NCBI GenBank assembly: GCA_021463195.1
Contig: JAJTXZ010000018.1
Coordinates: 1-64,000, forward strand
Direction: 5' to 3'
Source of the DNA: Anaerolineae bacterium
Lineage (GTDB): Bacteria; Chloroflexota; Anaerolineae; UBA4142; SHND01
DNA: 64,000 nt
Both the position numbers and the translations under genes were made by a program. The notes beneath the pieces were generated by a model. The model was not told the DNA's origin. It made no database searches and was given only the letters and a program-made list of their open reading frames with translations. Numbering within the stretch: position 1 is the stretch's first letter; each line of letters opens with the position of its first letter. Shown here piece after piece: positions 31,851 through 58,638 of the stretch.

Positions 31851-34694
31851 TTATGTCAATACCTCTTGAATCTTTTCCTGCAAGTCTTGCGGCGTATATG
31901 GCTTTTGCATAAAAGCGTTCACCTGCTTGCCATTAAATCGGCTGCTTGCTTCTTGTTCGGAATAGCCGCTCATTAGCAAAACTCGCACATCGGGATTCAC
32001 TTCGCGCAAGTGACGCAGTGTCTCCTCGCCGCTCATTTTGGGCATGGTCATGTCCAACAAGACGCAAACAATCTCGCCCCGATTTTGTTTGTATACGTCA
32101 ATTCCAGCAGGTCCATCTTCCGCCAAGAGCGGCGTATAGCCAATCCGCATGAGCATTCGCTTGGTCACGTTGCGAACGACTTCTTCGTCATCAATCACCA
32201 ATACCGCGCCGCTGCCTTTGGCTTTTAACAGTTCGCCATTGGTTTTCTCGTGATGATGCGGCGCGTCCTTGACGGGCCACAAAATGCGAAAGACCGAACC
32301 TTTGCCCACTTCACTATAAACTCGAATCGCGCCGCCATGCCCGCGCACAATGCCCAACACAGCCGCCAAACCCAAGCCACGGCCGGTGAATTTGGTCGTA
32401 AAGAACGGATCAAAAATTTTGTCTTGGGTCTCTTTGTCCATCCCGACGCCATCGTCCGCCACCTCGACAAACACATACGCGCCTTCGGGCAATTCTGGCG
32501 CCATAAAATTGCCATTGAGGTAATCGCGATCCGCTTGCACTACGCCCGTGCAAAGACTAATCGTCCCTTGCCTGTCGCTAATCGCGTCCGATGCGTTGAC
32601 AATCAGATTCATCAACACCTGACGCACCTGCGTCACATCGCCCTCAATCGGCGGCAGCGTCGGATCGAAATTAAAGCGCAAGGTCGCGTTCTTGGAGATG
32701 GAAACTTGGAGCAGCTGCGTGATTTCGGTAATGATATTATTGAGATTGATGCTTTGCATCACGAAACGGCCTTTACCGGAATAGGCCAGCATCTGGCGCG
32801 TCAAATCCGCCGCGCGCTGCGCCGCGATTTTGATTTGCTCCACCGGTTCGCGCACCACCGATTCCGGCTCGAGGTCCACCAACACCAAACCGACGTTGCC
32901 CAAAATCGAGACGAGCAAATTGTTAAAATCGTGCGCGATGCCGCCCGCCAACACGCCGAGCGACTCTAATTTTTGCGTCTCTTGCAATTTGCGCTCGAAC
33001 ACGCGCTGCCGTTCCTGTTCCAATTTGCGCTCGGTGATATCTTCGGAAATGCCCAATAGATATTTGGGCTGTCCATCCACGTCCAAAATCGGAATTTTTT
33101 TGGTATGCAGATATCGCTTGCCGTGCGCCGTTTCGATTTGCTCTTCGGGAATATCCAACAGTTTGCGCCCCGCCAACGTCTCGCGGTCTTTGAGCTCGAA
33201 AAAGCGCGCTTCATTTTCGGGGACGATATCATAATCATTCTTGCCCAAAAGTTCAGCGGTTGATTTGCCCAACAACTGTTCGCCAAAACGATTAAAGCGC
33301 ACAAAACGCAAATCTTGCGCGTCCTTGACAAACACCATGTACGGCAAATTGTCCACGACTGTATTGAGAAACACTTCAGTGCGGCGCAAATCGCCCTCGG
33401 CGCGTTTTCGTTCGCCCAATTCATTTTGGGCGGTGTGATAGAGGCGCGCGTTATCCAACGCGATCGAAGCCAATTCTGAAAAGCGCGCGAGCGCTTCCAT
33501 TTCGCTTTTGCTAAAATGGCGCCCTTCTTCCAAATACGCCAACCCGATGACGCCCACCGTCTGCGCGCCGGATTTGACCGGCACACCTGCGACCGCGCGC
33601 AAAATATCGCGCGAGGAGAGCGCCAAACGACCGGGCCAATTGCGATAATCATCCACTTTGACCGGCTCGCCCGACTGCCAGACGGTCCCCGCGAGACCGA
33701 CGCCATAATTGGCTTTGGTGCCTTTGAATCCGTTGTACGCCCCGATGGCAATCCGCATAATCATTTCGGAATTGCCCGCGCTGCCCGCCGTCTGCAAGAA
33801 CACGTAACCATGTTCCGTGCCGACCAATGCCGCCGCGCGCGCCACAATTTGCTCCAACAAATCCTCGAGGTCGAGACGGCTCATCAGACCGAGCGTAGTT
33901 TCGTGCAGCGCGGTCAGATACGCGTTCTGGTCGCGCAAAATTTGTTCGACGCGCATCCGATCCGTAATATCCGCCGCGTGGCTCAGGACATACGTGCCTT
34001 CGCCCGGTTCATGGGAACGCACATTGCGATATTGCAACACATGCACGGCGCCATCGCGCGACTGCAGCTGCACCAAACCATCGTCGCTGTCGCTGACCGC
34101 GATGCGCTCCAAATACGCGGCAAAATCGGAATGAAATTCCGGTGGAATAAAATCGCGCAGATCGCGTCCGACAATTTCATTCACCGGATAACCCAAAAGA
34201 TTCGCTGCCGCCGGATTAATTGATTTGAGGCAGCCCTCCATATCATGCGTCAAAATCAAACCTTGACTGTAATCCACCAAATGCCGATAACGGCGCTCGT
34301 TATCGCGCAATTTTTGTTCCGCCTTGTGGCGGTACAAAGCGATTTCAATCGTGGACTGGAGTTCGCGCTCTTCAAACGGTTTGAGAATATAACCGAACGG
34401 CTCGGTGACTTTGGCGCGTCCCAATGTCGCCTGGTCGGCGTACGCCGTCAAAAAAATAACGGGGATATCCAATTCCGAACGCACGATTTCCGCCGTTTGG
34501 ATACCATCCATATCGCCTTCGATTCGAATATCCATCAAGACCAGATTGGGCAACGTCGCTTTGGCTTTGGCAATGGCATCTTGGCCCTCTGCCGCCATCG
34601 CCACAACCTGATACCCCAAACCTTGCAGCCGAAACTGCAAATCTTTGGCGACAATGCGCTCGTCTTCCACAATCATAATTCGCGTATCACTCAT
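31851..34694 (-). CDS. hybrid histidine kinase (REC-PAS-GAF-PAS-HisKA-HATPase-REC)
   Basis: 947 residues, no membrane segment. Domains: receiver with Asp55 (LMDIRIEGD); PAS at about 130-245; one GAF at about 275-430; PAS at about 445-565; a HisKA helix with the phospho-His at 588 (GGIAHDFNNLL); HATPase (VADDGVGMDKETQDKIF, GRGLGLAAVLG); C-terminal receiver with Asp881 (LLDMTMPKMSG). Its N-terminal receiver is of the kind that follows HisKA_2 kinases, so the upstream 1438-residue kinase may phosphorylate it. Last gene of the sensor operon. No DNA-binding output is encoded here. Confidence 0.96.
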   Translation of the reverse strand: MSDTRIMIVEDERIVAKDLQFRLQGLGYQVVAMAAEGQDAIAKAKATLPNLVLMDIRIEGDMDGIQTAEIVRSELDIPVIFLTAYADQATLGRAKVTEPFGYILKPFEERELQSTIEIALYRHKAEQKLRDNERRYRHLVDYSQGLILTHDMEGCLKSINPAAANLLGYPVNEIVGRDLRDFIPPEFHSDFAAYLERIAVSDSDDGLVQLQSRDGAVHVLQYRNVRSHEPGEGTYVLSHAADITDRMRVEQILRDQNAYLTALHETTLGLMSRLDLEDLLEQIVARAAALVGTEHGYVFLQTAGSAGNSEMIMRIAIGAYNGFKGTKANYGVGLAGTVWQSGEPVKVDDYRNWPGRLALSSRDILRAVAGVPVKSGAQTVGVIGLAYLEEGRHFSKSEMEALARFSELASIALDNARLYHTAQNELGERKRAEGDLRRTEVFLNTVVDNLPYMVFVKDAQDLRFVRFNRFGEQLLGKSTAELLGKNDYDIVPENEARFFELKDRETLAGRKLLDIPEEQIETAHGKRYLHTKKIPILDVDGQPKYLLGISEDITERKLEQERQRVFERKLQETQKLESLGVLAGGIAHDFNNLLVSILGNVGLVLVDLEPESVVREPVEQIKIAAQRAADLTRQMLAYSGKGRFVMQSINLNNIITEITQLLQVSISKNATLRFNFDPTLPPIEGDVTQVRQVLMNLIVNASDAISDRQGTISLCTGVVQADRDYLNGNFMAPELPEGAYVFVEVADDGVGMDKETQDKIFDPFFTTKFTGRGLGLAAVLGIVRGHGGAIRVYSEVGKGSVFRILWPVKDAPHHHEKTNGELLKAKGSGAVLVIDDEEVVRNVTKRMLMRIGYTPLLAEDGPAGIDVYKQNRGEIVCVLLDMTMPKMSGEETLRHLREVNPDVRVLLMSGYSEQEASSRFNGKQVNAFMQKPYTPQDLQEKIQEVLT

Positions 34695-34750
34695 AACCTT
34701 TACCTTTCAAACTATCGCGCAAACTTTTTTTCAGGCGAACAAAGGTCAAC

Positions 34751-37700
34751 TCAGCCCGGGGGGAATGTAAGCGTAAAGCTGGCGCCGTTACGTCCGCTTA
34801 CTTCCATCTTGCCGTGCAGTTGCGACGTCAGCGTGCTTACCAGCTGCAGCCCCAACGAATCGGACTCGCGCCAATCAAAATCATCCGCAAAACCGACGCC
34901 GTCATCCGCGACTTGCAAGACGAGATTCCCATCCGACAGCGACTGCAAGCGCACATACAACTTGCCGCGCTTGCCATCGGGGAACGCGTATTTCATCGAA
35001 TTGGTCACCAATTCGGAAATAATCAAGCCGCACGGAATCGCCGTGTCAATGCCCAGCAAAATATCGGCAACATCCAATTCTGTTTGAATCTGGTCAGGAC
35101 TGACGGTGTACGAACGAAACAAGTATACCATCAACTCGCGCACGTAACCGGCAAAATCAATCCGCGCCAAATCTTTGGACTGGTATAACTTTTCGTGAAT
35201 CAACGCCATCGAGCGCACGCGCGCCTGACTTTCGCGGAACAACAACAGCGCGTCGGGATCTTTGATTTGCGCGGACTGCAAATTCAGCAATGAAGTGATA
35301 ATTTGCAGATTGTTTTTCACGCGATGATGAATTTCTTTGAGCAAGATTTCTTTTTCTTGCAAAGACAATTTAATTTCTTCTTCGGCGCGTTTGCGTTCTT
35401 GCACTTCTTGCTCCATCGCGCCGTACAGCTGCGCGTTTTGCAGCGCCGCGCCCACCGTCGCCGCAATCGTTTCAAGCAAACGCGCATTGGCTTCATCAAA
35501 AGCGTTTTCGCGCGTGGTATTTTGAATGCTGATGACGCCCGTCACCTCTTCGCCGACCAGAATCGGCACGCCAAGATAGGATAACGCCGGCGCGCCAAAC
35601 ACCTTGGCGCCCAACTGCGCCATCGTATCATCCACCGCGCGATTCAACAGCAACGGCTGTCGCGTGCGAATAATCTCCGAGGTCAAACCCTCGCCAAAAC
35701 GCATCGGTTCCACCTGCGCGCGTTTGCCGTCATTCACAAAATAGGGCAGCGAAATTTTTTGGTTCGCGCGGTCATACAACGCGACATAGACATTTTGCAC
35801 GTCGAAAATTTCGCGCACCTGCTCGCCGATGACGCTGAGCAAGGATTCCAAATCCAACTCGGATGTTACCGCCTGTGAAATACGGTTCAGCGCGTCCAAT
35901 TCCGTCACGCGACGCTGCGCTTCGCCGTACAGGCGGGCGTTATCGAGCGCCAAACCCAAACTTTGCACTACATCATTGACCAGACCGAGACGGTCTTCTG
36001 ACCATTCTTGCGTCGGGTCCGCATCCTCCAAACCGACCGTGCCAATAATATGTCCGCGCACGACAATCGGCGCCGCGAGCGCGCTGTGACCATTTCCTTT
36101 CGAGATGACCACCTCGCCCGTTTGCGCGGCGTGTTCCAATTCCGGCAATTCGGCGCGCACCTGCGCCTCGGGCGCTGTATTCTCCACCCAGACTGCGCTA
36201 GCTTGCGAATCGAGATACTCTTGCCACCCTTCGCCCGTAAGGCGACGATTCAGCGCGAGAATTTGTTCCGCCGCCGCATGTTCGCGTTCAACGGCGCGCT
36301 GCGCTTCCGCCAAAGCATCTTGCGTCTGTTCATGCAAACGTTGATTCTCTAACGCGGTCCCGAACTGCTGACTGAACGCCGCAATCCGTCGTTGCAGCGT
36401 CGCAGTCGGTAAATGCGTCGGTTCACGCGCCGCAAAGCTCAAGTATCCAATACGCCCATCGCCAAAGCGGAGCAGCGCGCTCGCAACACCGCGCGCATCC
36501 TGCTTGAGCAGAGTTTGTCGCGCCATTTCAGCCAGCGCGGCTTCTTGGGTCACATCGGGCATCACAAGCGATTTTTGTCCTTCCGCCAAGGTATACATCT
36601 CGGCGGGAATAGACCAAAGGTCGTCCGCGCTGGGAGATGGCTCGAACGCCGCCGTGCCAGCTTGCTGTCCGGCGCTGTGAATGACAAAGCGCGGCGCTTG
36701 CGGATCTTGCATCGGATCTTCCAGCGTCAACGTCGCGCGGTCAAAACCTTGCGCTCTGCCAAATTCGACGGCAACCTGAAGCAGCGCGTTCAAGTCTGTC
36801 GCGTTCCCCAATTCGCGCGTCGCGCGATACAATTCTTCGGTTTCAGCCAGCGCGTCTTGCGTCTGTTCGAACGAACGTAATCTTTGCAAACTAGCGCTCG
36901 CCCACGCCGCGATTTGTCTGACATAATTCACGTCTTGCGTCGAAAAATACGATTTCGTTCGACTGCTCACATTGAGCGCGCCCACCGCTTTATCGCCCGA
37001 CAAGAGCGGCGCGTTAATCACCGCGCGCATTCCTTGTTTGACGAGATACATCATCGCGTCCGGATTATTGTAATGCGCGATTACATCCGGCGCATAAACC
37101 AATTCGTGACTTGACAACGCCTGATTCAACAGCGTGCCGGCAAGAGTCATTTTGGCGCTAACGGGCAGCACGCGGTTCTCGGCTTGAACCGCATATAGCT
37201 GAAAACTCGTATTGTCCGGCGTCACCATCGCCATAGCGATATTATCCGGCGATAGCGCCTCTTGAATCGAATGATGCGCGAGCGTTATCACTTCGTCCAA
37301 TGAACGCGCGGATGAAATTCCGGCGCTGGCCGAACCGAGACAGCGTAGAATGAACGCCTGTTGGTTACTTTGTTTCAGCGCGGCTTGCGATTGTTCAAAC
37401 AACCGCGCGTTTTCCAATGCCAATGCCGCGAGCGCCGCAAACCGGTCGAGAATTTCAATCTCGGATTCGCCAAAGGCGCGGTCCGCTTCTTGATATGCTA
37501 ACCCGATGACGCCAATCACCTGCCCTGCGGATTTTAACGGCACACCGACAGCCGCTTTGATATCCTGGCGTCCCACGCCGCTCAAACGTCCGGACCAATT
37601 CGGATAATCATTAATCGTTAGATGTTCGCCCGTTGCCCAAACTGTGCCAGCCAGCCCAATCCCCGATTTGACGCGAGAACCGACCAACCCCTTGTACAAA

Positions 37701-39067
37701 CCGACTCCGACACGCAGTATCATGTTTGCGTCCGGCGTATCTTGCAAATAGATATAGCCGTCATCCGTATGCACCAGCGTCGCCGCGCGCGCGACAATCG
37801 CTTGCAACAGTTTATTGCGGTCAAGATGGCTCATCAAACCCGCGCTCGTTTCAGCCAACGCGGCGAGATAAGAACTATTCGCTTGCAATTCGGTATTGGC
37901 TTGTTCGAGTTCGGCGCGGCTCGTCTCTAACGAACGCGTGCGGTCCACCACACGCTGTTCGAGTCCTTCCAACGTCTGACGCAAACGCGCGGTCATGTTA
38001 TTGAATGCCAACGCCAAACCGGAAATTTCCGTCGGCCCGGCGACTTTAGCTTGCAGATTTAATTCGCCTTCGGTGATACGCGTTGCCGTCTGGGTCAAAT
38101 TCACAAGCGGCGCGGTCAAACGTCGCGCCAAATAAACCCCTACCAAGCCCGCCAATAATGCCACCGTCAAAAGAATCAACAGCGAAGTCACCGCAATTCC
38201 AATCACATTGCGATATGCTTCCTGCCACGGCAATTCAGTCACGACCGCCCAGTCCGGCAAGTCGAGCGGAACCGCCGCGCCGAGTACGGTATCGTTACGA
38301 ATGCCGGTCGTCAAACTCAGCAGATTGGACGGCGGATTCGCGCGGTGATTGACAAACTCGTTGACCCAATAAAGCGACGTGACATTGGAACGAAGCAACA
38401 CACGCACCGTATCGCGGTAAGCGATTAAATTTCCCTCGCGGTCTATCACATACGCCACGCCCGCTTCGCCTACTTGCAAGCTATTTACCAAATCCCACAT
38501 AGACTTGAGATTGAGTTCGGCGAATAAAGCGCCTTGCACCTCGCCGCGCGCGTTTTTAATTGGCACCCCCAGTATCACCATTGGCTCGCCGGAAGACGCA
38601 TCAGAATAGGACGGACTGATCACGCGCGCACCCGCCGCTAGTTGCGCTTTCATGTCGGCGGTTATGCGGTCTTGAAAGGGCGTCGCATTATAAGAAGGCA
38701 GCCGAGACGTGACAGCAACCTGTTCGCCGGCATTGTTAAAAATCGCCAACCGACGAAACGTGGGTTGAATATTCAACAGGTTTTCCAGATTAAATGTATT
38801 TTGCGCTTGATAACCGGGCGCCGGATTGGAAATGTTTGCCAGCGTTTCGAGCGCGCCAAATTTATCTTGGAAAAAATCGCTAACAGAGCGCGCCACGCCT
38901 TGCGCCACCAACTGTAGATTGCTGGTGATTGCGTCTTGCTGCGTGCGCACAAACGAAAGCAGCACGAGATCGCTGGACAAGGCGCTCACAATTACGCTCA
39001 TCACAAAAAAGGTAATGGCAAGCGTGCGGACCAGACTTGAAGATTTTGAATTAGCGCTCGATTTCAT
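34751..39067 (-). CDS. membrane HisKA_2-type sensor histidine kinase with five GAF domains
   Basis: 1438 residues. A membrane helix (about 10-35), an extracytoplasmic Cache-like sensor (about 45-290), a second helix (near 300-325), HAMP and a coiled coil, then five consecutive GAF domains (about 400-1220). A HisKA_2 dimerisation domain follows with phospho-His1247 ([20 protein letters not shown]) and an HATPase ([16 protein letters not shown]). The final GAF is followed by the ERKRAEEEI coiled linker typical of kinases. It is the only GAF-array protein in this operon that joins the arrays to a kinase core. It ends 56 bp before the hybrid kinase gene. Confidence 0.96.
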
Positions 39068-39110
39068 GGCTTGACTCGCAATAGCTGCGCGCGACGCGCT
39101 TGCATTTCTT

Positions 39111-39204
39111 TAGAGCAAATTCCTAGTTCGTTTGTGAGCCAAGACCTTTCGGGTTTTCGGAAACCCGAAAGGTCTACCCACAAATCAAAGTGGAATCGGC
39201 TCTA
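39111..39204. repeat. 94-bp palindromic element
   Basis: Ends TAGAGC and GCTCTA, with arms of about 45 bp pairing imperfectly around the centre GGTTTTCGGAAACC; the inner arms (AGACCTTTCGGG / CCCGAAAGGTCT) are perfect. A half copy lies at 6211-6264. It occupies most of the 151-bp gap between the 1631-residue sensor gene and the HisKA_2 kinase gene. Confidence 0.75.
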
Positions 39205-39218
39205 ACTGCGGACGACAC

Positions 39219-42200
39219 TTATATCGGTTTATCGCGATTCAATTTGACGACCGCGCGCGCGCTGCCGGTGGAGCGGCGCAGTTCTTCGGTCGCAATCTGC
39301 AACAATTTTTTCACGTCGGTTGTCGCATAAATGCGACTCGCGATTTCGGCGGATTTCTTTTCGCGTTCTGCCAACCGCCGCGTCTCTTCCAATGCCGCCT
39401 GCATTTGACCCGCCAAACGCGCATTATCCAACACCAGCCCTAACTTTTCGCCAATGTTATCAACAATGACCTGATTGTCTTGGGTCCATTCGCCGGCGGC
39501 GTCATCGTAATCCATTTCAATCGAACCAATCGCTTCGCCGCGCACAATAATCGGAATTTGAATTTGTTTGGTCGGTTCGAGGTCGGACGACGGCGCGTCC
39601 GCGTCTTGGTCCACCGCTTCGACCATTAACGCTGTTGATGCGACCTTTAAATAATCCTGCCAACCTTCGCGTGTCAGACGACGATTCAATGCCGATACTT
39701 GGTCTGCCGCTTGGCGCGCTTGCGCCGCGAGCCGCTGCGTCTCTGCCAAAGCGTCCTGCGTCTGCTCAAACAGACGCCGATTTTGAATCGCGGCGGAAAC
39801 GAGACTGGCGATTTGCGATGCCAGCTGCTCGTCGAGCGCATCAAAACGCTCCGGTTGCGGACTAACGATATTGAGCGTACCAAGCGGCTTGCTGCCGCCC
39901 GAAAACATGGGCGTGACAAGCGTTGACGCCAAACCCTGTGAAAGCATCGCCGCGCTATCCACAAAATTCACCGCATGCAAATCGGGAACATTCACCAGCC
40001 GATTATCGCGCAAACTCTGTTGGATGAGCGTGTTGTGAATAGCCAAACCGACATTCACAAACTGCGTGGCAGTCGGGTCTTGGAGCGCATACAATCGCAC
40101 CAGACTCGGGTTATCCGTGATAACGGCAAAAGTCGCGTCGCAATCGCGGAACAGTTCGCGCGTTTTGCGCGCCGCAATCGCATACAATTCATTCACATTC
40201 TGCACGCGGTTCAAGTCGCCGCTCAATTCGTTCAAGAGACCGAGACGCTGCGCCTGATACGCCGTCTGGCTCAGCGCGTTCTGCGTTTGCTCGAATAAAC
40301 GCGTGTTCTGAATGCTCGCCGCCACCGTCAAACCAATCGTCTTTAACAGGTTCACATCGGATTCGCGAAATTTATTTGGCGCCTGATCTGACAGTCCGAT
40401 AACGCCATAAACCGAATCGCCCAACAGAATCGGCACACCGAGATACGATTCCGTATCATCGCGCCCTGCGTTCAACGCCTGCAATTTATCCATTTGCGCG
40501 CGCATCGCCGTATCAATCCACAATGGCACGCGCGTCTGAATCACGTGCGAGGTAAAACCGGGACCGAGCGTATACGGCTCAACTTGCAACAGTTCGCCAT
40601 CGCCCATGAAATACGGCATCCGAATCATATTGGTTTCCGCGTCATATAGCGCGATATACACGCCCGCGACTTGGAAAATGCCGCCCAATTCTTTGCCCAC
40701 CTGCGCCAGCCGTTCATCGAGCGCTTGGTCAAGCGTAAGAATGCTGCCGATGCGATTCAACACAGCCAACTCTTCCAATTGCTGCTGCGTCGCCTGCGCT
40801 AGATGTTCATTTTGAACGGCAGTCGCAATGTTTCCCGCAATCGTCTGCAAAAAGCGGACATCCGCGTCAGTAAAGAAATGTTCCGGCGCGGCGCTGAGCG
40901 CAATGACGCCGTACGCTTGCGCGCCAAGCACGATTGGCACCGCCAGATATGAATTGGTTGGCGCATCTTTATCGCCAATCCAAATCCCGCCGAGCTCTTG
41001 AAAACGCTGCGGCAAATTTTCGTTAATAAGCAGCGGCGCGCGCGTCTCTAACGTGTGCGCGATAAAACCGGTTCCGCGCTGACGCGGCGGAACCTCCAAC
41101 TCGATGCCATTATCCAGAAAAAAGGGCAAGGTCACCATATTCGACGCGGCATCGTACATGGCAATGTACAGCGTCGAAACCTGAAACGGTTCCAAGAGCT
41201 GCTTGCCCATCTCGCGCAAACGCGTGTTGAACGTCTCGCCCGAATTCATAATCGCCGCAATCCGATTTAACGCCGACAACTCGCGCACGCGACGCTGCGT
41301 ATTCTGTCCTAGCTGAATATTATCCAGCGCGACGCCGACATTCGTCGCAATCGTCGTCAACAATTTGACATCTTCAGCGGTATACGGACGCTCAGGCGAG
41401 ATGCGTTGAACCGAAATCGCGCCGCCCACTTTGTCACCCACGCGCAGCGGCACGGTCAACAACGAGCTGGGCGATGCGCCGTCCCCTAAATCCACCGCGC
41501 CCATATTCTCATAATCTTGCGGCGAGCCGCGCGTCACCCATACGAGTTCGCCCGTCGTGATCACCTGCGAAGTGATACCCTCGCCCAACATCATCGGTTT
41601 GAGTTCGATGCGCCGATTATCATCCACCACATACGGAAATTCGATGTGGCGAGTGTCGGAATTATAGAGCGCCAAGTAACCAAAATCGGCGTCAAAGATT
41701 TTATGAATTTCAGCGCCAACAAGTTCAAACACCTGCGGCAAATCATTTTGGCTCACCACCAGTTGACTAATGGTATTGAGCGCGCCCAATTCTTGGACGC
41801 GAAATTCCGCGTTCGCGTACAGCTGCGCATTGTCCAGCGCAATGGATGCCAACTGCGCGAACCGCTGTAAAATATCAATCTCCGCTTTGCCAAATTTCCG
41901 TCCCGCTTCCGTGTACGCCAAACCAATGACGCCCACAGTTTCATCGTCCGCGCTGCCTCTGCCCGCGCCGCGTTTTAGCGGCGTTCCAACCACCGCGCGC
42001 AGCGCGTCGCGACGCGGGTCAGGCAAACGACCCTCCCATTTTTGATAATCGTCAATAACCATCACCTTGCCGGTCTGCCAGACGGTGCCGGCAAGACCAA
42101 CCCCGCGATGCGCGCGCGTGCCAATCAAATCATCATACAAGCCCATCCCCACGCGCATTTCAATATCAGCGGCTTGCGCGTCTTGAAAAAACACAAACCC

Positions 42201-44144: not shown

Positions 44145-47100
44145 CTATGTTTTGCCGTTCGTTTTGCTGGCTTGAAGATTCAACCGCACAACCGCGCGCT
44201 TGCTGCCCGTCGTGCGCTGCAATTCTTCGGCGGCAGTTTGCAGAGCCGATTTGATATCCGCCGCCGCGTAAAGACGGTCAGTGATTTCAGCGATTGTTTT
44301 GTCGCGTTCGGCGGCGCGCTGCGTTTGGCGCAAAACGGTTTGCGTGGATTCGTACAGCCGGGCATTATCCAACGCCACCGCCGCCAATTCAGCAAATCGT
44401 TCCACCGCTTCCACTTCAGCGGGCGTAAAGACGCGCCCTTCATCCAAAGACGCCAACCCCAATACGCCCACCGTCTGCGTCTCTGATTTGAGCGGCACGC
44501 CAATGACAGCGCGCAACGCATCGCGGTCCACCTGCGGCAAGCGACCCTGCCAATGCTGATAATCATCCACCACAATCGCTTCGGCATTTTGCCAGACGGT
44601 CCCCGCCAAACCTTGACCCGCCTGGGCGCGCGTGCCAATTAAATCGCGATACAGACCGATGCCGACGCGCATCCGCAATTCCTTGGCATTCGATTCGACC
44701 AGATGCACATAACCATGCTCGGTGCCAACCAACTCGGCAGCGCGCGTGATAATATTCTGCAAGAGCTCTTCCAAATCGAGGCGGCGCATAAGTCCGAGCG
44801 TCGTATCATGCAACGCACTCAAGAAAGCGTTCTGTTGGCGCACCGATTCTTCGGCTTGACGACGCTGTAAATATTGCGTGATTTGACTGCCTACGCCGGT
44901 CATCGTCGCAAATAAATTGTCATCCAAATTCTGCGCATGATTGCTAAAAAAGACCGCGACCCCTGATATTTGGGCATCAAGTGTAGGAAAAGCAAACGCG
45001 CCGACAAGTCCGGCGGCATGCGCGGCTTCGACTTGGCGAAAGCGCGCGTCATTCAAGATATCCTCTGTCCAGATAGGCTGTCGTTCCGCCCATGCTGCGC
45101 CCGCAAAACCTTCGCCATAAGCCAATTTCAAACCCGCCGTATCTTGAATGAATGATTGAACCTCGGGCAAAGCTGCGCCCCAAACATGCCGCAACGTTAA
45201 AATTTGCGTAACTTTGTCCGCTGCCCAATATTCGCCGAGTTGCCAATGTTGAGCGTGACAGATTGTCTCTAAAAGTTCGGTTGCGACATCGTCAAAGCGA
45301 TTCGCGCCCGCCAAGAGCCGCGCGGTTTGAAATTGCAGATTCAAACGAGCTTGGGTTTCCTGCACTTGGGTTAGCGCGTCCTGAGTCTGTCGCAAAGCGA
45401 CTTGGGTCTGTTCAAAGAGCGCGCGGTTATCCAATACCGTCGCCGCCTGCGCCATAATCGCGCGATAAAGACGCAGGTCTCGCGCGGTGAATTCATGCGC
45501 CTGGTCCCAACTAAACGTGAGTAGCCCAATCCAACGTTCGCCCACTTTTAATGGCAGCGCGGCAGACGCGACGGTCCCGCCGCGCGCAACCATCGCACGC
45601 GCTTCAGGCGCCAAATCGGCGATTTCGCGCAAATCAGAAAAAACGGTCGGCTCGGACGAATTTGACAACCATGCCGTTGAGCCTGCAAAGAACGCGAGCG
45701 GAAAACGGGTTGGCATCGTCTCGGTGAACGTTTGCTCGCGCGGCCAATTGCCGAGTAATTCGAGTTCTTGCGGATTGCCAAATGAATCGGCGTGAATACG
45801 CAAGAGCCCCGCGCGCGTAGCGCCTTGAACGACCGCCGGACCGGACGCGGCTTCCAACGCTTCTTGAATCGAATTGGCGGCGTTCAAACGCGCGCTGATT
45901 TCGTACAACGTCCGCGCTTCCGCCAACGCCTGCTCGGTTTGTTCAAATAATTGGCGATTGTCCAACACCGTCGCGACTTGCGACATAATCGCGCGATACA
46001 AACGTTCATCGCGCTCGGAAAACGCGTGCGGCTCGGACCAACTCAACACTTGGAGCGCGACCCAGCGCGAGCCAACTCGCAGCGGCAATAACGCGGTCGC
46101 GCGCACATGCGAATAGCGATACAACGTCCGCGCGTTTTCGTCCACCCGCGCGTCGGACTCGATATCAGTCACCAAGAGCGGCTTATCGGGATTTTCAATC
46201 CAAAACTTGGATAGCGGCACGGTATCGAGATCATAGCGCGTGCCCTCGATGCCCGACGGCATCGCCCGATCGGACCACCGCGCGACAATGACGCCCCATT
46301 TGGGCATGTTTTTCGCGTCGCTTTCGAGGAGCATCAAAGTAGCGGTATCCGCGCCATCCTGAATACCGCTGGCGGACGCGGCGCGTAACGCTTCCGCCAG
46401 CGTCGTCGCCGTATTGAGCTGCGCGCCGATTTGATACAACGTTTGCGTCTCCGCCAGACTCTCCTGCGTCTGCTGAAACAATAAGCGGTTATTCAACACG
46501 AGCGCCAACTGCGAAGATAGACTCTGATAAATACGCTGTTCGCCCGCCGCAAAAGAATATTTTTGCGGCCAACCGATGAGAATAAGACCCAAATTGCGCT
46601 GTTCAACGACGAGAGGCAAAAACGCGGCGGCGCGCGTATGGGAAGCAGCCAGAATAGCGCGCGTCTGGGCGTCAATCACGGGATTCGTTTCAATATCCTC
46701 GACAAATAACAGAGCGCCCGGATTTGCCATAAAATGCTTGCCCACCGAAAACTCATTTAACGGGAAATGGGTGTGCTGCGGCAAAGAAGCAAGCCCATGC
46801 AGAGCGGTCCAACTAACGACGACATTGGCAGCCAACACCCCATCCGGCGCGGTTTCAAGCAGCAAGAGTTGCGCGGACCCGGCGCCGCGGTCGAACGCAG
46901 GTTTGGCGACGATATGCACCAATTCTTCAAGCGTGTTAACCTGATTCAAATGACTGCCGGTCTCGTACAAGAGCTGTGTTTCCGCCAGCGCCGACTGCGT
47001 CGCGCCAAAGAGCCGCGCATTGTCCATCGCGGCGACCACGTGACTCGCGACGCTAGTCAGCAACGCCACTTGCGCCGCGTGATAGGCGTCAAACTCGTAA

Positions 47101-49970: not shown

Positions 49971-50765
49971 TTAGCGCGGCTTTTCAACATACACGCCGTA
50001 AAATTCCAAGCCCACGCCCTCGCGGTCCGCTTCGGTAATGTAATCGGTCAAATTCAACCATTCAGTAATCGGGCGAAAACCGCGCGCATCGGGCTGCCAC
50101 GGTTTAATCAATTCACGCGCCTTGGCTTCTGGCACAAGATGCATCGGCGAACCCATCTGTTCAAACATCCCAAGGAATTGACCCCATTGCGGCGTCATTG
50201 CCCCTTCCGCCTGCGTCTCCCAAGTAATCCACATTTTGCTGCCGGGCGCAGCCCAATCATAGGTCGCCTGCATAATGTGTTGAATTTCCTGGTCCGACAA
50301 AAAGACCGTAATCCCATTCAAACCAATCGCAACGCGGCGTTCCGCGCCAAACACTTCGGGAATCACCGGCGAAGCCAGCAAAGTATCAATCTGGCGGACA
50401 TCCGCTTCGAGAAAACGGACATTGGGATTATCGCCCACAATTTCCGCGCCATAATTGACGACCACCGGGTCATTATCCACATAAATCACTTTGGCATCGG
50501 GCAAGGTGGAATGAATATGTTCGACAGTGGGCAGCCCGGAAGCCAGATCAAAAAAGTGATTGAATCCTTCCGCCGAGAGTTCCTCCGCCGCATCATGCAA
50601 AAACATCCGCAGCAAGCGCACCCATTTTTTGGTAGAAGGGACGAGCGAAAACATGTATTCGGCTGCCTGTCGGTCCGCTTCAAAATTATGCGAACCGCCA
50701 AGTGAATAATCATACACACGCGCGGCATTGGGAATGTTTATGTCCATAGACTGTCTTTCCGACAT
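49971..50765 (-). CDS. SAM-dependent methyltransferase, Methyltransf_19 (DUF574) type
   Basis: 264 residues. The N-terminal fingerprint NAARVYDYSLGGSHNFEADR and FFDLASGLPTVEHIHS identify the Methyltransf_19/DUF574 family, best known from actinobacteria; its substrates are mostly unknown. VIYVDNDPVVVNYGAEI gives the acidic end of SAM strand 2. ATG 50765 has a strong GGAGGG ribosome site. It lies between two giant GAF sensor genes in the same direction, so it is presumably co-expressed with them. It is not a CheR-type receptor methyltransferase by sequence. Confidence 0.93.
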   Translation of the reverse strand: MSERQSMDINIPNAARVYDYSLGGSHNFEADRQAAEYMFSLVPSTKKWVRLLRMFLHDAAEELSAEGFNHFFDLASGLPTVEHIHSTLPDAKVIYVDNDPVVVNYGAEIVGDNPNVRFLEADVRQIDTLLASPVIPEVFGAERRVAIGLNGITVFLSDQEIQHIMQATYDWAAPGSKMWITWETQAEGAMTPQWGQFLGMFEQMGSPMHLVPEAKARELIKPWQPDARGFRPITEWLNLTDYITEADREGVGLEFYGVYVEKPR

Positions 50766-50877
50766 TTTACCCTCCGAGGTAATTGGTGTAGCCCGCTGCG
50801 CTCACGCGCGCGGGCGAGAGTGACCGATAGAATTAGCGCGCGTCCGCTTCCCGCGCGAACACGCGCCTCGAACTTTT

Positions 50878-53800
50878 TTATTCATGCCCCCCATTGGATT
50901 GCTTTTCCGACGCGCCGATTCGCACCACCGCGTGCGAAGCGCCCAATGCGTGACTCAATTCGCGCGCCGTCGTCTGCAAAATTTGTTCCAAGTCAAGCGA
51001 ACGCGTCATGTGCGCGCCAATCTCGCGCGTCAACTGCTCGCGCCGCGCGCGCTCTTGGGTCTGTCCAAACAAACGCTGCTTTTCAAGCGCGTTCGCCATC
51101 TGATTCGCGATTGTTTCGGCGAGCCGCGCGTCTTGGGGCGTAAAGAAACGCGACGGCACATCCAAGTCCAACCCTACCGTGCCAATCACTTGGCTGCTGG
51201 ACAACAGCGGCACAATCATTAAACCAAACGTGCGCCGTTCCCGCATCAACGCGTGAATCGGTTCCGTCAACGGGTCAGTCTGCGCGTTCTCGATAACCAG
51301 CGGTTCGCGTGTCTCTAACACACGTTGAGTGGATGGATTATTGACGATAGGAATTCGCACGCCCAACGCCTCGGGCTGGTCCGCCGATGAAGACGCGCTC
51401 GCCATCACAACCAATTCGGCGCGGTCAGGCGTAAAGAGCGCGATCCCGCAGTTGCGCGCGTTGAATACATCCACCATTTCACGCGCCACCATACCAAGCA
51501 TATCCGACAATTCGCCGCTCGTCGTGACCAGCTGCGTAACGCGATTGACCGTCGCCAACTCGCGATTGCGAAGCGCCAACGCTTCTTGTTCTTGACGGCG
51601 CGTAATCGCGTTCGAAATTTCCGGCGCCAGCGCCAACAACATTTCCAATTCCGACGCGGCATACGAATGCGCCTCGTCATAACTTTGGACGGCAAACATG
51701 CCAAAAGTTTCCGCGCCGCGTTTAAGCGGAATCCCGAGCCATTCAAACGAAACGATGCCGAACAATTCAATCTCGCCGCGTTCCATCATTGCCCTGAGGG
51801 TAGGCGCGTCGCCCAATAACGGCTGCCCGTGTTTGATAACCCAAGCGGTAATCCGTTTACCTGCCGGCAAATAATTGCGCGCATTGAGCGTCGGCGCCGT
51901 ATCCTGCGTATCTACGAAATACGGAAACTCTAACGCGTCTTCATTCGCATGATATAGAGCCACATACATATTCGGCGCATAAACCAATTCGGCTACGATT
52001 TCATGCAGCGCCGCATAAAAGGCGTCCGTCGTCGCCGCCGTATTCACCGCGTCGGCGATGCGGAACAACGCGCTCTGAATTTGTTCCGCGCGCGTGCGCT
52101 GCACCACTTCGCGCTGCGTCTCTTCCAACAAACGCTGCTTTTCGAGCGCGTTCGCCATTTGCGATGCCATCGTTTCCGCCACTCGAATTTCATCCGCCGT
52201 AAAGACGCGTCCCGCTTCCGTCGTATCGAGACCGATCGTGCCAATCACCATTTCGCCCGACAACAGAGGAATAATCGCCAGACAGGTTGTGTGACGATCG
52301 CGCATTCGCTCGTGAATGCTCGCGGTAAGCGGATCATTCTGCGGATCCGTAATGATCAACGATTTTTTATTTTTAATGACATATTCGGAAGAACGATTGC
52401 CTTGGACCGGAATGACAATGCCCACCGCATGTTGCTCATGTTCTTCGGCGAGCGCATCCGCCACCACGACCAAGTCGGTGCGTTCCGAATTCAACAAAGC
52501 GATGCCGCAGTTGCGCGCGCGAAAAGTCTGGACCAATTCCTTTGCCATTTGAGCCAACGAATCTTCAACCGGCGCGTCGGACATCATCGTAGCGGCGACA
52601 CGGTTCAACGATTCCAATTCGATATTGCGTTGACGCGCGTGCATCTCGGCGCGCGTGCGGTCGCCAAGTTCCTGCTGCACCCGCTGATACAACCGCGCAT
52701 TTTCCAACGCGGTCGAAATCGAACGCGCCACGCGTTCGACCAAATCCAAATCCGCTTGCGAAAACTCGCGCTGGCGCCGTGAACCGATACCTACCGTGCC
52801 AATAATTTCATCGCGCACAAACAACGGCGCAAGCAAAAGCGACGCCGTTTGCCTCAGCTTCATCAGATCATGCACCGCTGCCATACGCGGGTCATGTTGC
52901 GCGTCCGAAAATGCCGCCGGACGGCGCGTCTCCAACACAATTTCAGTCGAAGGATTTCCTGCGACGGGAATGTTATAGCCCACCGTGGATGGACTGCCTT
53001 CAGGTTGATGCGCCGCCGTTACAATCAGCGTCTGTTTATCTGGTTCCAAAAGCGCGACGCCGGCTTGCTCGGCGTCAAAATACGCCGCAAGGTCAGAGCA
53101 AATCGCGCTCAACGCACGGTCCACGTCAAAGCTCACCGCGTGATGAGTCACACGATTCACCAATTCAGTTTGCCGGAGTTCCGACGCCAATTCGGCTTCG
53201 GCGCGCGTGCGTTCCGCAATCTCCTGCTGCGCCACAGTAAACAACCGCGCGTTGCGAATCGCGGCGGCGGCTTGCGTCGCCAGCAATTTGCCAATTTGCT
53301 CATCTTCCTCGGTAAAGCGTTTTTCGGGCTGCGAATGGGTCGCAGTCAACACGCCGACGGTTTCGCCCTGCCAAATCATCGGAATTCCAATGGCGGCGTG
53401 GAACGGCGCATCCGCAAACTGTTCCGAGCGCAACGCCCATGTGCGATAATCATCCACCCGCAGCGCAGTCCCTGCCGCCATCGCGCGCCCTGCCAAACCT
53501 TCGCCGCGTTTCAAGCGTCGTCCGCCAAGCGAAACTGGGCCCACATTCTGCGAGACCTGAATCTCGAGCTCATCCGCGCCAACGGGAATCCAAATGTCGG
53601 CGCCATCCACGTTTAGCAGGCGCTTTGTTCGCCCGCAAATCAAATCAAGCAGCGTCTCGATCTGCGCTTCGGGTTTGCCCAATTCCAACGAAAGGTCAAA
53701 TAGAGAGCGGATCCGTTCCGCCTGCGCCGCAATCAACTGCTCGGCGCGCGTGCGCTCCGCCAATTCCGCGCGCGCCAAATCGTACAACCGCGCGTTTTCC

Positions 53801-56800
53801 AGCGCCGTCGAGATGGATGCGCCGACGCGTTCAACCAACGCGATTTCGCGCGCGCTAAATTCGCGTCGCGTGAGCGAGTCAATCCCCAGCGTTCCGATAA
53901 CTTCATCGCGTCGGAAAAGCGGCGCAATCAAAATCGAGACGGTGCCGCGCAGGCGCATCAGCTCATGCACCGCCGCTAAACGCGGGTCGGTTTGCGCATC
54001 GGCGAAAGCGACAGCGCGACGCGTTTCCAAGACGATTTCCGCTGAAGGATTGCCCTGCACCGGAATTGTATAACCTCTGACGTCGGGCGAACCTTCCGGC
54101 GAAAAATCCGCCACCACAGTCGCCGCCGTTTTATCCTCATTCAACAGCGCGATACCGGTCTCGTTCACGCCGAAAAATTCGCCGAGGTCGCGACAAATCG
54201 CGTTCAACGCTTCGCTCACATCGAGGTTCACCGCGTGACGCGTGACGCTGCCGAGCAATTCTGTCTCGCGCAATTCGATCGCCAACTCGGCTTCGGCGCG
54301 CGTGCGTTCCGCCAATTCGCTTTGGGACGATTCATACAAGCGCGCATTATCGAGCGCAATCACCGCCAACTGGGCAAAGCGTTCTAGCGCTTGGATTTCT
54401 TGTTCGCCGAATTTTTGTTTGGGATCGAGATACGCCAAACCGATGACGCCAATCACATCATCGCCTGAACGCAGTGGCACGCCGATGACTGCGCGCAAAA
54501 TATCGCGGCTGGCGTCCTGCAAACGTCCGCCATATTCGCGATAATCTTGGACCACCACCGGCGCGCGGTTCGCCCACACTTCGCCGGCGAGACCGACGCC
54601 GGGCTTGGTGCGTCGCCCAACAAATCCTTCGTACGCGCCAACGCCAACGCGTAATTCCATTTCGTCTGCGTCCGGCGCTTGGAGATAAACATATCCATTT
54701 TCAGTGCCGACCAATTGCCCGGCGCGCGCCACAATATCATGCAATACCGCATTCACATCCAAGCGTTGCATCAAGTCAAGCGAAATTTCTTGCAGCGCGT
54801 TCAAGTAGTCATTCTGACGATTGAGCTGCTCTTGCCGCTGCTGCTCTTCGGTAATATCCCAGAACATGGTCTGAATACCGTCAATCTCGCCCATGTCATT
54901 ATAAATCGGCGTCTTGAGAACGCGCACCATAATATCCACGCCGTCGCCGCGTTGATGCGGTTCAATCGTGTCAACCGTTTCGCCGCCGCGCAGCACGCGC
55001 AAATCGTCTTGCCAATATTTTTCAGCGAGTTCACGCGGATGAAAATCGAAATCGGTCTTGCCGTACAAACCTTCCGGTTTCAATAACGTATCTTCAAAAT
55101 AACGCGTATTGCCAAACGTCACGCGCCCTTGGCGGTCTTTGCGCGTCAACGATTGCGGCAGCACATCCACCAACGAGCGATACAACGCTTCGCGTTCGCG
55201 CACGGCGGCTTCCGCCGCTTTCATTTCAGTCACTTCGGTATTGACGCCAGTGACAATAAATTCAGTGTCACTCTGGGGATGAATGCGCGCTTCTTCCATC
55301 ATCCAGTGCGTCTTGCCCTCCGCGTCAATAACGCGAAATTCTTGCGTGTAACGTTCCGCGCCTTGACGCAGCGCCTGCGCGCTGCGTTCGTTCATCGCAT
55401 GTTTATCATCCGGATGCCACGCGGCGTACCACGCGTCCCCAAACGAGGCGCCGGGCGCGATCTGAAGCGGATACGGAATGCGCGTCGTATCAAGATTGGC
55501 ATATTCCGTTTCCCAATGAAAACCAGCCGCCTCTGCCGCCGGATCATTCAGCTCGGTGACGCGCGCCGACCAGAAAATGGAATGCGTATCTTGCGAGACG
55601 CGCCGCATCAGCGATTCCGCGCGACGAATTTCAGTGACATCGTGAAAGAATGAAATGCGCGCCAGATATGAACCATCGGCAGCGGTGACCGGCGCGCTAT
55701 ACCGTTCATAAACGCGACCATCGCGGAGTTCGACCAAATCGCGGTTCTGCTCGAACTGATTCTTGTACATTTCGTCGGTGCGCTCGAGCCAAGCTTCCGG
55801 ATTGAGAACCTGCGGACGCACCAGTTGACGCAATGATTCCAACGTCTTTGCCGTCATATCCTCGGTCGCAATGCCCCAAATTTCGGTAAACCGTTGATTA
55901 AAAGAAAGAATTTGGTTATCCGCGCCAACCACCAAAATACCGTCCGGCGAAACCTGGAACTGCGCCGCGACCAACGCGTTCTGAAAGGCCTCGCGTTCTT
56001 GGGCGCGCTTGCGTTCGGTAATATCATCCGAGATGCCTAGCAAATACGCGGGTTTGCCGTCCGCGCCCATAATCGGCACTTTGCGCGTATGCAGCCAACG
56101 GATTGTGCCGTCAGCGGTTTGAATCGGCTCTTCGGGAATATCAAGCGTCTGCCCGCTCGCCAGCGTTTCGCGGTCTTTGGCGACAAAAGATTCCGCGTCC
56201 TGCGGAAATAAATCGTAATCGTTCTTGCCCAAAAGGTCTTGGCGCGCATGCCCCGTAAGTTCTTCGCCGGTTTTATTCCACTGCACAAAACGCAATTCTT
56301 GCGCGTCTTTAACGAACAACATCAAAGGCAAGTTTTCAATCAGCGAATCGAGAAACTTTTCGGCGTTTTCGCGCTGCGTCAATTCACGCCGCGACGCGTC
56401 CAATAACTCGGCATTGTCCAAAACTAACGCCGCCAGCGCCGCGAACCGATTTAACACATCCACTTCAGTTGGGCCAAAGCGCTTGTCCATCTCCAAATGC
56501 GCCAACCCGATAACGCCAATAACTTGATCACCCGATTTGAGCGGCACGCCAATGACCGCGCGCAAAACATTGCGGCTGGGGTCCGCCAGACGGCCACTCC
56601 AAGTGCGATAATCATCTACCGCGAGCGCTTCACCCGATTCCCACACCAAGCCCGCCAGTCCATTTCCGCGTTTCGCTTGTGTCCCAACAAATTCTTGATA
56701 CGCGCCAATGCCGACGCGCATCGTCATTTCTTGCGTAGCGCGATCAAGCAAGAACACATATCCGTTTTTCGTGCCAACCAATTCGCCCGCGCGTTCGATA

Positions 56801-58638
56801 ATATCCTGAAGCAGCGTTTGAACGTCGCGCCGTTTGAGCAGAGCCACACTCATATCTTGGAGCGAAACATAATACGCGTTGTTCGATTCCAATTCGATGG
56901 TGCGGTCGGCGACGCGTTGCTCCAAATTACCGACCAGTCCGCTCAACTGCGCGGTCATTTGATTGAACGTAGTTGCCAGCGCGCCGATTTCATCTTCGGT
57001 ATCCACCGGCGCGCGCGCGCGCAAATCACCGGCGCGCACACGCTCCGCTGTCGCGGTCAAACGAATAATGGGCCGCGCCAACACTTCCGCGCTTGCTAAT
57101 GCAATCACGCCGCCCACGAGCGCAATCACCAACGCCAAAATAACAGTCCCGCGCGTCTGCGCTTCAACCGGCGCTACAATTTCAGCGCGATCTTGATGCG
57201 CCAACAAAGTCCAATCCAAATTGGCGACCGCCGCGCCCACCGCATCGCTGGTAACCGCTTGAATTGCCGCGCGACTGTAAAGGCGCGGCTCGGCGACCGC
57301 GCTGACAATTTCAACCGTATCGTCCGGCGCGGCGCGAATGCGATCAAGCGTTGTCGTATCGTACAATGCCTGGTCAAAACCGATAGTTTGATTATCGGGC
57401 AAGAGAATATCCGCATGGCCCGATTGTCCGAGATGAATCGCCGCCAACAATTTGAAAAACGCTTGCAACGAATATGTCGTGCGTATAATCCCCGCGACAG
57501 TTTTGCCATCGGCGGCATAAAGCGGCGCCGCAATATTGATCGCGCTCGTCTGCGCGCTGACATCAAAATCCGGTTGTCCGATATACACCGCGCCCTGACC
57601 GTTGTTGTACGCCGCTTGCCACCATTCTTCGTCGCCTTGATAATAATCCGAAGTGCGATTCGTCGCCGCCACATTCGCGCCGTAACGGTCCGTCACAAAC
57701 ACTTCAACATTGTCGGGATACGCGGCGCGAAATCGGCGTAAAACCTCCGCCGCCGGATTATTCAAGCGCGACGCGACGAGCGCGTCGTCGTTGTTATGCG
57801 CCGCATCCGCGGCGCGCCAGGTTTGGTCTAGTCTTTCCAATTCCGCGCGAATCAACGTCGCATCGCCTTGATACGCGGCATTCGCGTCCGCCACCGCCGC
57901 AGCCAGGGTGGAATCCACCGCCAACACATTCAACACGCGCGCCTCTTGGTCCAACTGCGCCGAGATATTTTGCGCCTGCGTATCCGCCACATTCTTGAGC
58001 GCGACGCCGGCGCGTTGAGTGAAAACTTCGGTCGAAGCGCGATAATTAATGACGGCTAAAATCGCCAGCGGAATCAAAGTTAACGCGAGGGCAACGACAA
58101 TAATTTTTTCGCGGATGCTGAATTTTGAAAAATGTCTCAAAAGAAAAATACTGTACAAGCCCAAGGTCGCTAACGCGACGATAACTGTGGCGGTAAAGTT
58201 CAACACCACCGGGCGCGTCGGCGAACCAAACACATCGAGCAATACACACATCGCCGCTGAAACGCCGCCTGCCAGTAACGCCCAAATGCGCCAGCGCGGC
58301 GACAACGCCAAATACGCGCACATGCCCGAAATGACAAGCACGACCAATCCCTGCAAAACTCCCGCGCCCTGCGAAGCAAAAGAAGAAAAAGGCGCCGCGA
58401 TTAACACCACGCCCAAAATCAATGCCATGCCCAAGTCACGCCGATTGCGACGCGTCAACACGATTGCGATCACACATATCGCTACCAAAGCCGACCACAA
58501 ACCCAACGTGAAAATTCTGGTGCCGTTCAACAAGCCCGCCCCAATTAGAGCAAGCATGACGGCAGCGAGAACTCCCGCGATACGATACGCATTGATATTG
58601 CGCGCTTGGACTTGATTATCCATAATCGGTTCTCTCAT
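50878..58638 (-). CDS. giant membrane sensor protein with eight GAF and about four PAS domains
   Basis: 2586 residues, the largest product here and first gene of the operon. Order: about six to seven membrane helices (1-215), a Cache-like extracytoplasmic domain (about 225-480), a helix, HAMP (ARPIIRLTATAERVRAGDLRA), GAF, four PAS units (about 790-1290; VKDAQELRFVQWNKTGEELT is the first), then seven more GAF domains. The end is the same partial GAF start (ARELSHALGASHAVVRIG). No enzymatic or DNA-binding output is visible. GAF pairs such as the third and fifth are close copies. Start ATG 58638; MDNQVQ five codons later is possible. Confidence 0.93.
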   Translation of the reverse strand: MREPIMDNQVQARNINAYRIAGVLAAVMLALIGAGLLNGTRIFTLGLWSALVAICVIAIVLTRRNRRDLGMALILGVVLIAAPFSSFASQGAGVLQGLVVLVISGMCAYLALSPRWRIWALLAGGVSAAMCVLLDVFGSPTRPVVLNFTATVIVALATLGLYSIFLLRHFSKFSIREKIIVVALALTLIPLAILAVINYRASTEVFTQRAGVALKNVADTQAQNISAQLDQEARVLNVLAVDSTLAAAVADANAAYQGDATLIRAELERLDQTWRAADAAHNNDDALVASRLNNPAAEVLRRFRAAYPDNVEVFVTDRYGANVAATNRTSDYYQGDEEWWQAAYNNGQGAVYIGQPDFDVSAQTSAINIAAPLYAADGKTVAGIIRTTYSLQAFFKLLAAIHLGQSGHADILLPDNQTIGFDQALYDTTTLDRIRAAPDDTVEIVSAVAEPRLYSRAAIQAVTSDAVGAAVANLDWTLLAHQDRAEIVAPVEAQTRGTVILALVIALVGGVIALASAEVLARPIIRLTATAERVRAGDLRARAPVDTEDEIGALATTFNQMTAQLSGLVGNLEQRVADRTIELESNNAYYVSLQDMSVALLKRRDVQTLLQDIIERAGELVGTKNGYVFLLDRATQEMTMRVGIGAYQEFVGTQAKRGNGLAGLVWESGEALAVDDYRTWSGRLADPSRNVLRAVIGVPLKSGDQVIGVIGLAHLEMDKRFGPTEVDVLNRFAALAALVLDNAELLDASRRELTQRENAEKFLDSLIENLPLMLFVKDAQELRFVQWNKTGEELTGHARQDLLGKNDYDLFPQDAESFVAKDRETLASGQTLDIPEEPIQTADGTIRWLHTRKVPIMGADGKPAYLLGISDDITERKRAQEREAFQNALVAAQFQVSPDGILVVGADNQILSFNQRFTEIWGIATEDMTAKTLESLRQLVRPQVLNPEAWLERTDEMYKNQFEQNRDLVELRDGRVYERYSAPVTAADGSYLARISFFHDVTEIRRAESLMRRVSQDTHSIFWSARVTELNDPAAEAAGFHWETEYANLDTTRIPYPLQIAPGASFGDAWYAAWHPDDKHAMNERSAQALRQGAERYTQEFRVIDAEGKTHWMMEEARIHPQSDTEFIVTGVNTEVTEMKAAEAAVREREALYRSLVDVLPQSLTRKDRQGRVTFGNTRYFEDTLLKPEGLYGKTDFDFHPRELAEKYWQDDLRVLRGGETVDTIEPHQRGDGVDIMVRVLKTPIYNDMGEIDGIQTMFWDITEEQQRQEQLNRQNDYLNALQEISLDLMQRLDVNAVLHDIVARAGQLVGTENGYVYLQAPDADEMELRVGVGAYEGFVGRRTKPGVGLAGEVWANRAPVVVQDYREYGGRLQDASRDILRAVIGVPLRSGDDVIGVIGLAYLDPKQKFGEQEIQALERFAQLAVIALDNARLYESSQSELAERTRAEAELAIELRETELLGSVTRHAVNLDVSEALNAICRDLGEFFGVNETGIALLNEDKTAATVVADFSPEGSPDVRGYTIPVQGNPSAEIVLETRRAVAFADAQTDPRLAAVHELMRLRGTVSILIAPLFRRDEVIGTLGIDSLTRREFSAREIALVERVGASISTALENARLYDLARAELAERTRAEQLIAAQAERIRSLFDLSLELGKPEAQIETLLDLICGRTKRLLNVDGADIWIPVGADELEIQVSQNVGPVSLGGRRLKRGEGLAGRAMAAGTALRVDDYRTWALRSEQFADAPFHAAIGIPMIWQGETVGVLTATHSQPEKRFTEEDEQIGKLLATQAAAAIRNARLFTVAQQEIAERTRAEAELASELRQTELVNRVTHHAVSFDVDRALSAICSDLAAYFDAEQAGVALLEPDKQTLIVTAAHQPEGSPSTVGYNIPVAGNPSTEIVLETRRPAAFSDAQHDPRMAAVHDLMKLRQTASLLLAPLFVRDEIIGTVGIGSRRQREFSQADLDLVERVARSISTALENARLYQRVQQELGDRTRAEMHARQRNIELESLNRVAATMMSDAPVEDSLAQMAKELVQTFRARNCGIALLNSERTDLVVVADALAEEHEQHAVGIVIPVQGNRSSEYVIKNKKSLIITDPQNDPLTASIHERMRDRHTTCLAIIPLLSGEMVIGTIGLDTTEAGRVFTADEIRVAETMASQMANALEKQRLLEETQREVVQRTRAEQIQSALFRIADAVNTAATTDAFYAALHEIVAELVYAPNMYVALYHANEDALEFPYFVDTQDTAPTLNARNYLPAGKRITAWVIKHGQPLLGDAPTLRAMMERGEIELFGIVSFEWLGIPLKRGAETFGMFAVQSYDEAHSYAASELEMLLALAPEISNAITRRQEQEALALRNRELATVNRVTQLVTTSGELSDMLGMVAREMVDVFNARNCGIALFTPDRAELVVMASASSSADQPEALGVRIPIVNNPSTQRVLETREPLVIENAQTDPLTEPIHALMRERRTFGLMIVPLLSSSQVIGTVGLDLDVPSRFFTPQDARLAETIANQMANALEKQRLFGQTQERARREQLTREIGAHMTRSLDLEQILQTTARELSHALGASHAVVRIGASEKQSNGGHE

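Follow-up and report, generated by a model that had tools for sequence, protein, structure and literature searches.

Receivers of the PdtaR and PhyR types are partners of HisKA_2/HWE histidine kinases. The convergence of several sensors on one kinase has also been described. In the GacS-RetS-LadS network of Pseudomonas, the activity of a single kinase system is set by several sensors that contact it directly (PMC5992135, PMC4866733). The accessory sensors of that network are themselves kinases, whereas the giant sensors of the operon described here have no kinase domain.

The operon lies in a window of 64,000 nt (the whole stretch of DNA that was analysed) from an Anaerolineae genome. It consists of six genes, named g1 to g6 in the order of transcription, all of which were found on the minus strand in the ORF listing, from 58638 down to 31851 (Table 1). 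The intergenic gaps from g1 to g6 are 112, 78, 30, 151 and 56 bp, and the codon-position GC is normal in the long open frames. A preliminary description had reported six genes on a single strand, three output-less giants with about 24 GAF and four PAS domains, and a HisKA_2 kinase with five GAF domains followed by a hybrid kinase with one. The ORF coordinates, the Pfam scans and a GAF profile trained on window sequences bear this out. That description was silent on the methyltransferase g2, on the C-terminal tail shared by the giants and on a wider Chloroflexota family of tail-bearing sensor clusters.

Table 1. Coordinates of the operon genes, the C-terminal tails and the putative regulatory elements in the window.
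Feature	Position	Strand	Basis
g1, 2586 aa output-less sensor	50878..58638	-	ORF, Pfam, GAF profile, TM prediction
g2, 264 aa SAM-dependent methyltransferase (PF04672)	49971..50765	-	ORF, Pfam
g3, 1915 aa cytosolic output-less protein	44145..49892	-	ORF, Pfam, GAF profile, structure model
g4, 1631 aa output-less sensor	39219..44114	-	ORF, Pfam, GAF profile, TM prediction
g5, 1438 aa HisKA_2 kinase	34751..39067	-	ORF, Pfam, GAF profile
g6, 947 aa hybrid kinase	31851..34694	-	ORF, Pfam
g1 C-terminal tail	50884..51060	-	profile, alignment with GAF pairs
g3 C-terminal tail	44148..44324	-	profile
g4 C-terminal tail	39222..39383	-	profile, AlphaFold2 model
Hairpin 3' of g6, 11 bp, probable operon terminator	31785..31811	-	equivalent in 6/6 genus genomes
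g1 leader element TTGACAT ... CCTATTG ... TACAAT, candidate promoter	58813..58880	-	clear in 4/6 genomes
Terminator-like hairpin in g1 leader	58716..58751	-	outer stem same in 4/6 genomes, inner bases differ

Both g1 and g4 begin with seven predicted transmembrane segments, followed by a dCache domain, a further transmembrane segment and HAMP. In g1 these lead into one GAF, four PAS and seven more GAF domains, and in g4 into five full and one partial GAF domain. The third giant, g3, starts with an all-helical N-terminal domain, behind which stand nine full and one partial GAF domain. All three end in a half-GAF tail. Counted with the window-trained profile, the full GAF domains number 8, 9 and 5 in g1, g3 and g4, and one N-truncated copy each in g3 and g4 brings the total to 24. 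No output family was found in any of the three by Pfam scans, and no NCBIfam family exceeded its cut-off in the two giants scanned. Other giant GAF proteins, 1564 to 2575 aa long, are also encoded in the genome; judged by their C-terminal sequences, most of them end in a kinase or Hpt-like domain. The one exception is a 1564-aa output-less GAF protein (L009:6082-10776), which has no tail.

The N-terminal domain of g3 was modelled as all-helical by single-sequence structure prediction (pLDDT 82). Its matches are globin-like and include the RsbR N-terminus and pXO1-118, with scores within the chance range for helical folds: the non-heme globin fold of the RsbR N-terminus (2bnl) gave a Z of 8.6 (rmsd 3.2, 103 aligned residues) and 3pmd a Z of 9.2, but phycobiliproteins score equally well and helical folds reach such levels by chance. 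The model weakly suggests a globin-like sensor.

The kinase g5 is built of dCache, HAMP, four full and one partial GAF domain, HisKA_2 and HATPase_c, the last two scoring 105.6 and 39.4 bits, both above the Pfam cut-off. Its H box reads HHRVKNN (H1247/H1248), its N box contains N1356, and its core matches the blue-light-activated histidine kinase 2 (4r39). The order in g6 is REC (D55), PAS, GAF, PAS, a HisKA-type region, HATPase_c and a second REC (D881). Both receivers and HATPase_c are above the Pfam cut-off; HisKA scores 22.0 bits against a cut-off of 26.9, and the AHDFNN box is intact, with the histidine at H588. The N-terminal receiver of g6 matches PdtaR (1s8n) and PhyR-type receivers; no ANTAR domain was found in g6 by Pfam, and a PAS domain follows this receiver. 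By analogy with the known HisKA_2/HWE partnerships, these matches point to a possible phosphotransfer from g5 to the N-terminal receiver of g6.

The product of g2 matches PF04672, a SAM methyltransferase family, with an E value of 8.5e-43. Among the related genomes discussed below, the operon of G403 does not contain the gene and no copy was seen in G401, and the family also occurs in one distant tail cluster (G450). A second methyltransferase-like gene, 35% identical to g2, stands beside the first in G400 (L066:12009-12683).

The feature common to g1, g3 and g4 is one tail of about 45 residues, their last 54-59 residues being alike. Alignment to consecutive GAF pairs revealed that the tail corresponds to the first part of a following GAF domain, with helix 1 and strand 1, after which the protein stops. 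A profile built from these three tails matches them with E values of 1e-28 to 1e-31, and beyond them no significant match to it was found in the operon's genome. Outside the genus, relatives were found down to an E value of 9.6e-20. Matches occur in 48 of 400 genomes of the phylum, up to 15 per genome and often within a single region of 20-40 kb. Ten genomes of groups outside Chloroflexota gave one match, an internal GAF start; 296 genomes of the phylum to which a Thermoleophilia record belongs gave six single matches, at least one of them internal. A total of 105 output-less sensors, from the window and 20 other genomes that were read, end in the tail, where tail-bearing means a profile match within 80 residues of the C-terminus; three matches that passed the same profile threshold are internal. 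The tail-bearing proteins have a median length of 713 aa, with about 11 residues after the tail match, and most have predicted N-terminal membrane segments.

The tails are more conserved than the GAF starts inside the same proteins. Between genomes, tails are 32.4% identical, compared with 21.0% for homologous internal GAF starts and at most 21.8% in a mixed-label control; the value for tails is somewhat inflated, because choosing tails by a profile favours those that are alike. Within the genus, the figures are 50.9% for tails and 19.1% for internal starts. The comparison of orthologues is less dependent on the profile-based choice of tails and gave 62-95% for tails versus internal means of 35-63%, with single internal copies sometimes equal to the tail level. 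The position of a gene in its cluster is also reflected in its tail. The nearest neighbour of a first-position tail was the tail at the same position in another genome in nine of nine clusters, and the same was found for last-position tails in all seven clusters compared. The first-position tail adjoins the lone receivers where these are present, and the last-position tail precedes ParA. By sequence relationship, first- and last-position tails are separate conserved types.

The g4 tail was modelled with AlphaFold2 from a 25-row alignment as a long helix, a turn and a second helix (pLDDT about 92), followed by an unpaired strand segment. The modelled g4 end matches GAF domains only weakly, the best E value being 2e-3. 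A role of the tail in completing the N-truncated GAF domains found no support: those domains have a preceding segment of their own, and the tail strand is unpaired in the model.

In the Chloroflexota regions read, between 1 and 13 tail genes cluster on one strand, and a histidine kinase stands in the run or beside it. The window operon shows the same pattern, with three tailed output-less proteins and the kinases g5 and g6 directly downstream on the same strand. In one cluster (G192) the kinase and ParA stand at the upstream end, and in another (G337) the kinase extends beyond the sequence read and was left unscored. Most of the 15 regions read outside the genus hold at least one of several further genes, namely two lone receivers, a ParA/MinD-type ATPase, a hybrid kinase, a threonine synthase-receiver fusion and an EamA transporter; where a region ends at the cluster edge, a missing gene there says nothing on its presence. 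The fusion, a threonine synthase (PALP) with a C-terminal receiver, follows the kinase in clusters outside the genus (L053:14812-16662), and seven of the regions read contain the threonine synthase part. The open-access literature yielded no paper on this fusion. The kinase of the clusters outside the genus is of the HisKA type and not HisKA_2, so the coupled kinase differs between the genus and these clusters. According to Pfam and the cluster comparison, the ParA-type ATPase, the lone receivers and the threonine synthase-receiver fusion are absent from the window operon. Several other clusters are also without ParA or without lone receivers, which are common, not universal.

Six Anaerolineae genomes, one per species, were used as a sample of the genus. 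The gene order of the operon is kept at one site in all six, with the divergent groES/groEL on one side (groEL being split by a contig break in G402) and HMG-CoA reductase/synthase on the other. The genes are not scattered among relatives, and the six-gene set is a real unit. In the sister family, groEL and HMG synthase lie on different contigs, where an empty site is not demonstrable. The identity of g6 across the genus is 78-89%, and the number of full GAF domains varies among the orthologues compared, from 3 to 8 in g1 and from 5 to 9 in g3. In three of the six species, g4 is fused to the HisKA_2 kinase g5, giving proteins of 2137 (G402), 1622 (G403) and 2144 aa (G404) whose sequences match g4 over its first 1450-1590 residues and g5 in its C-terminal kinase part. 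An output-less giant is tied to the kinase by these gene fusions, and in the three fusion species the operon tails are found on g1 and g3 only. A 2749-aa frame in G401 (L068 with L069) joins the GAF stack of g1 to g3 with no methyltransferase between; a run of N lies just upstream of it, and it could be a misassembly.

Synteny and the g4-g5 fusion support the multi-protein sensory unit proposed in the preliminary description. The generic GAF-GAF or coiled-coil contacts suggested there are probably better replaced by a more specific contact element, the conserved half-GAF tail.

A single terminator for the operon, as had also been proposed, is a reasonable reading, since the hairpin after g6 recurs in all six genomes; it has no strong T-run in the window, and T-runs follow it in G403 and G404. 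Upstream of g1, the block TGTAATC.AATTGACAT...CAAGTACAT..ATCCTATTG...TACAAT is conserved in four of the six genomes, and in the remaining two only the core CCTATTG...TA(C/G)AAT was recognised by eye. The hairpin in the g1 leader is a possible attenuator. The element GATAGCTTTTGRCAG (window 31734-31748, minus strand), upstream of HMG-CoA reductase, is near-invariant in 6/6 genomes and may be a regulator site; since it has this element of its own, the HMG-CoA reductase gene is probably a separate unit. A CIRCE-like inverted repeat with two mismatches is located 5' of groES (window 59289-59315). Three 41-bp direct repeats with the palindrome GACAAATTTAAAATTTGTC lie upstream of g1 (window 59092-59194). 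They were considered as g1 operators and rejected, as they belong to a dispersed family with many near-copies genome-wide.

Whether the operon encodes one signal-integrating complex, with coupling of tails to kinase and a relay from g5 to g6, is in our judgement evenly balanced. In such a complex, g1 and g4 would be membrane receptors (Cache, HAMP and GAF/PAS stacks) and g3 a cytosolic receptor, none with an output of its own. A conformational signal would run along the GAF and coiled-coil stack of each giant to its half-GAF tail, consisting of a signalling helix, a turn, GAF helix 1 and strand 1. We infer that the tail is the coupling element between receptors and kinase. The tails may dock either to the GAF stack of g5 or to each other, through mixed helical pairing together with strand addition, and docking would set the kinase activity of g5. 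The latter would then phosphorylate g6 at its N-terminal PdtaR/PhyR-like receiver, and the kinase and C-terminal receiver of g6 would in turn hand the signal on to a final output outside the operon. The methyltransferase g2 may modify one of the components, perhaps in adaptation.

The giants might instead be independent of the kinases, as co-expressed ligand-binding or scaffold proteins whose tail serves only homodimerisation or the folding of the last helix. The modelled helical hairpin could simply cap a coiled coil, giant and kinase genes are separate in three of the six species, and the conservation of the tail could reflect homodimerisation or stability rather than docking. We nevertheless consider this rather unlikely, given the fusion of g4 to the kinase and the constant histidine kinase neighbourhood in the sampled clusters; the position-specific tail types also point to kinase-linked, partner-specific roles. 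That the giants are decayed or truncated kinases, with the tail as a relic of a break within the next GAF domain, would fit a tail that is homologous to a GAF start and stops after strand 1. However, 105 proteins share one stop point, the conservation of the tails exceeds that of the intact internal copies, the gaps behind the three tails (112, 30 and 151 bp) are too short for the missing parts, and the open frames are long with normal codon-position GC. This explanation is highly improbable.

A further possibility is a spatially organised receptor array, comparable to chemosensory arrays, that is positioned by ParA and acts on motility or cell polarity; the window operon would then be a reduced version that lacks the positioning factor. 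Elsewhere, chemotaxis systems are among the cargos that ParA-family ATPases position (PMC10241942, PMC11588486). Outside the genus, the clusters combine lone receivers and a ParA/MinD-type ATPase with up to 13 tail receptors of varied membrane N-termini and one main kinase, and the MCP chemoreceptor domain is absent from 16 of the 21 tail-bearing genomes, including that of the operon. Against such an array stands the window operon itself, without ParA and lone receivers, in a genome where the second lone receiver has no close counterpart (the best match being about 31-33%), and we regard such an array as unlikely. The missing ParA and lone receivers, together with the different kinase type outside the genus, also count against the single-complex reading, as do the lack of a recognised reciprocal docking site on the kinase and the operons of G403 and G401 in which no methyltransferase was seen.

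A broader proposal is an MCP-independent Chloroflexota architecture in which shared kinases serve large families of output-less receptors that connect to them via position-typed half-GAF tails, often with ParA; we put it forward tentatively, at somewhat less than an even chance. If true, the problem of connecting many receptors to one kinase would have been solved a second time. If the tails couple sensors to kinases, this would be a modular array off the chemoreceptor fold, in bacteria that are mostly without chemoreceptors; the runs of output-less GAF sensors in Anaerolineae would be explained, the tail would provide a sequence tag for them, and a truncated domain as a plug between proteins would become testable. 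The open-access literature yielded no paper on the tails or on clusters of this kind, which is a weak negative. The comparison suggests that the tail clusters are a previously undescribed multi-receptor signalling assembly.

Each part of the operon is a known domain, and the whole is a variant of multi-component two-component signalling. Like the PdtaS-PdtaR pair, it has a HisKA_2 kinase with GAF input and a receiver (that of g6) matching PdtaR. The receiver is, however, part of a second, hybrid kinase and carries no ANTAR domain, and separate output-less sensors are added. The stressosome with its RsbR paralogues is likewise a set of output-less sensors in one assembly, and the g3 N-terminus bears a weak likeness to the RsbR N-terminal fold, at scores that helical folds also reach by chance; in contrast to the stressosome, the operon sensors have no STAS domain by Pfam, and the size, the GAF stacks and the kinases differ. 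With the MCP/CheA array, the operon and its relatives share many varied N-terminal sensors and one common non-catalytic C-terminal element feeding a kinase, and many tail clusters outside the genus add a ParA-type ATPase and lone receivers. Here, however, the common element is a half-GAF, the kinases are HisKA_2 or hybrid HisKA rather than CheA, and neither the operon's proteins (Pfam) nor its genome (genome search) contain MCPsignal (PF00015). A further likeness is to the other Chloroflexota tail clusters, where the same tail is found on output-less GAF sensors beside a histidine kinase on one strand, although the sensors there are smaller (median 713 aa for the whole set) and most clusters contain ParA, receivers or the threonine synthase-receiver fusion.
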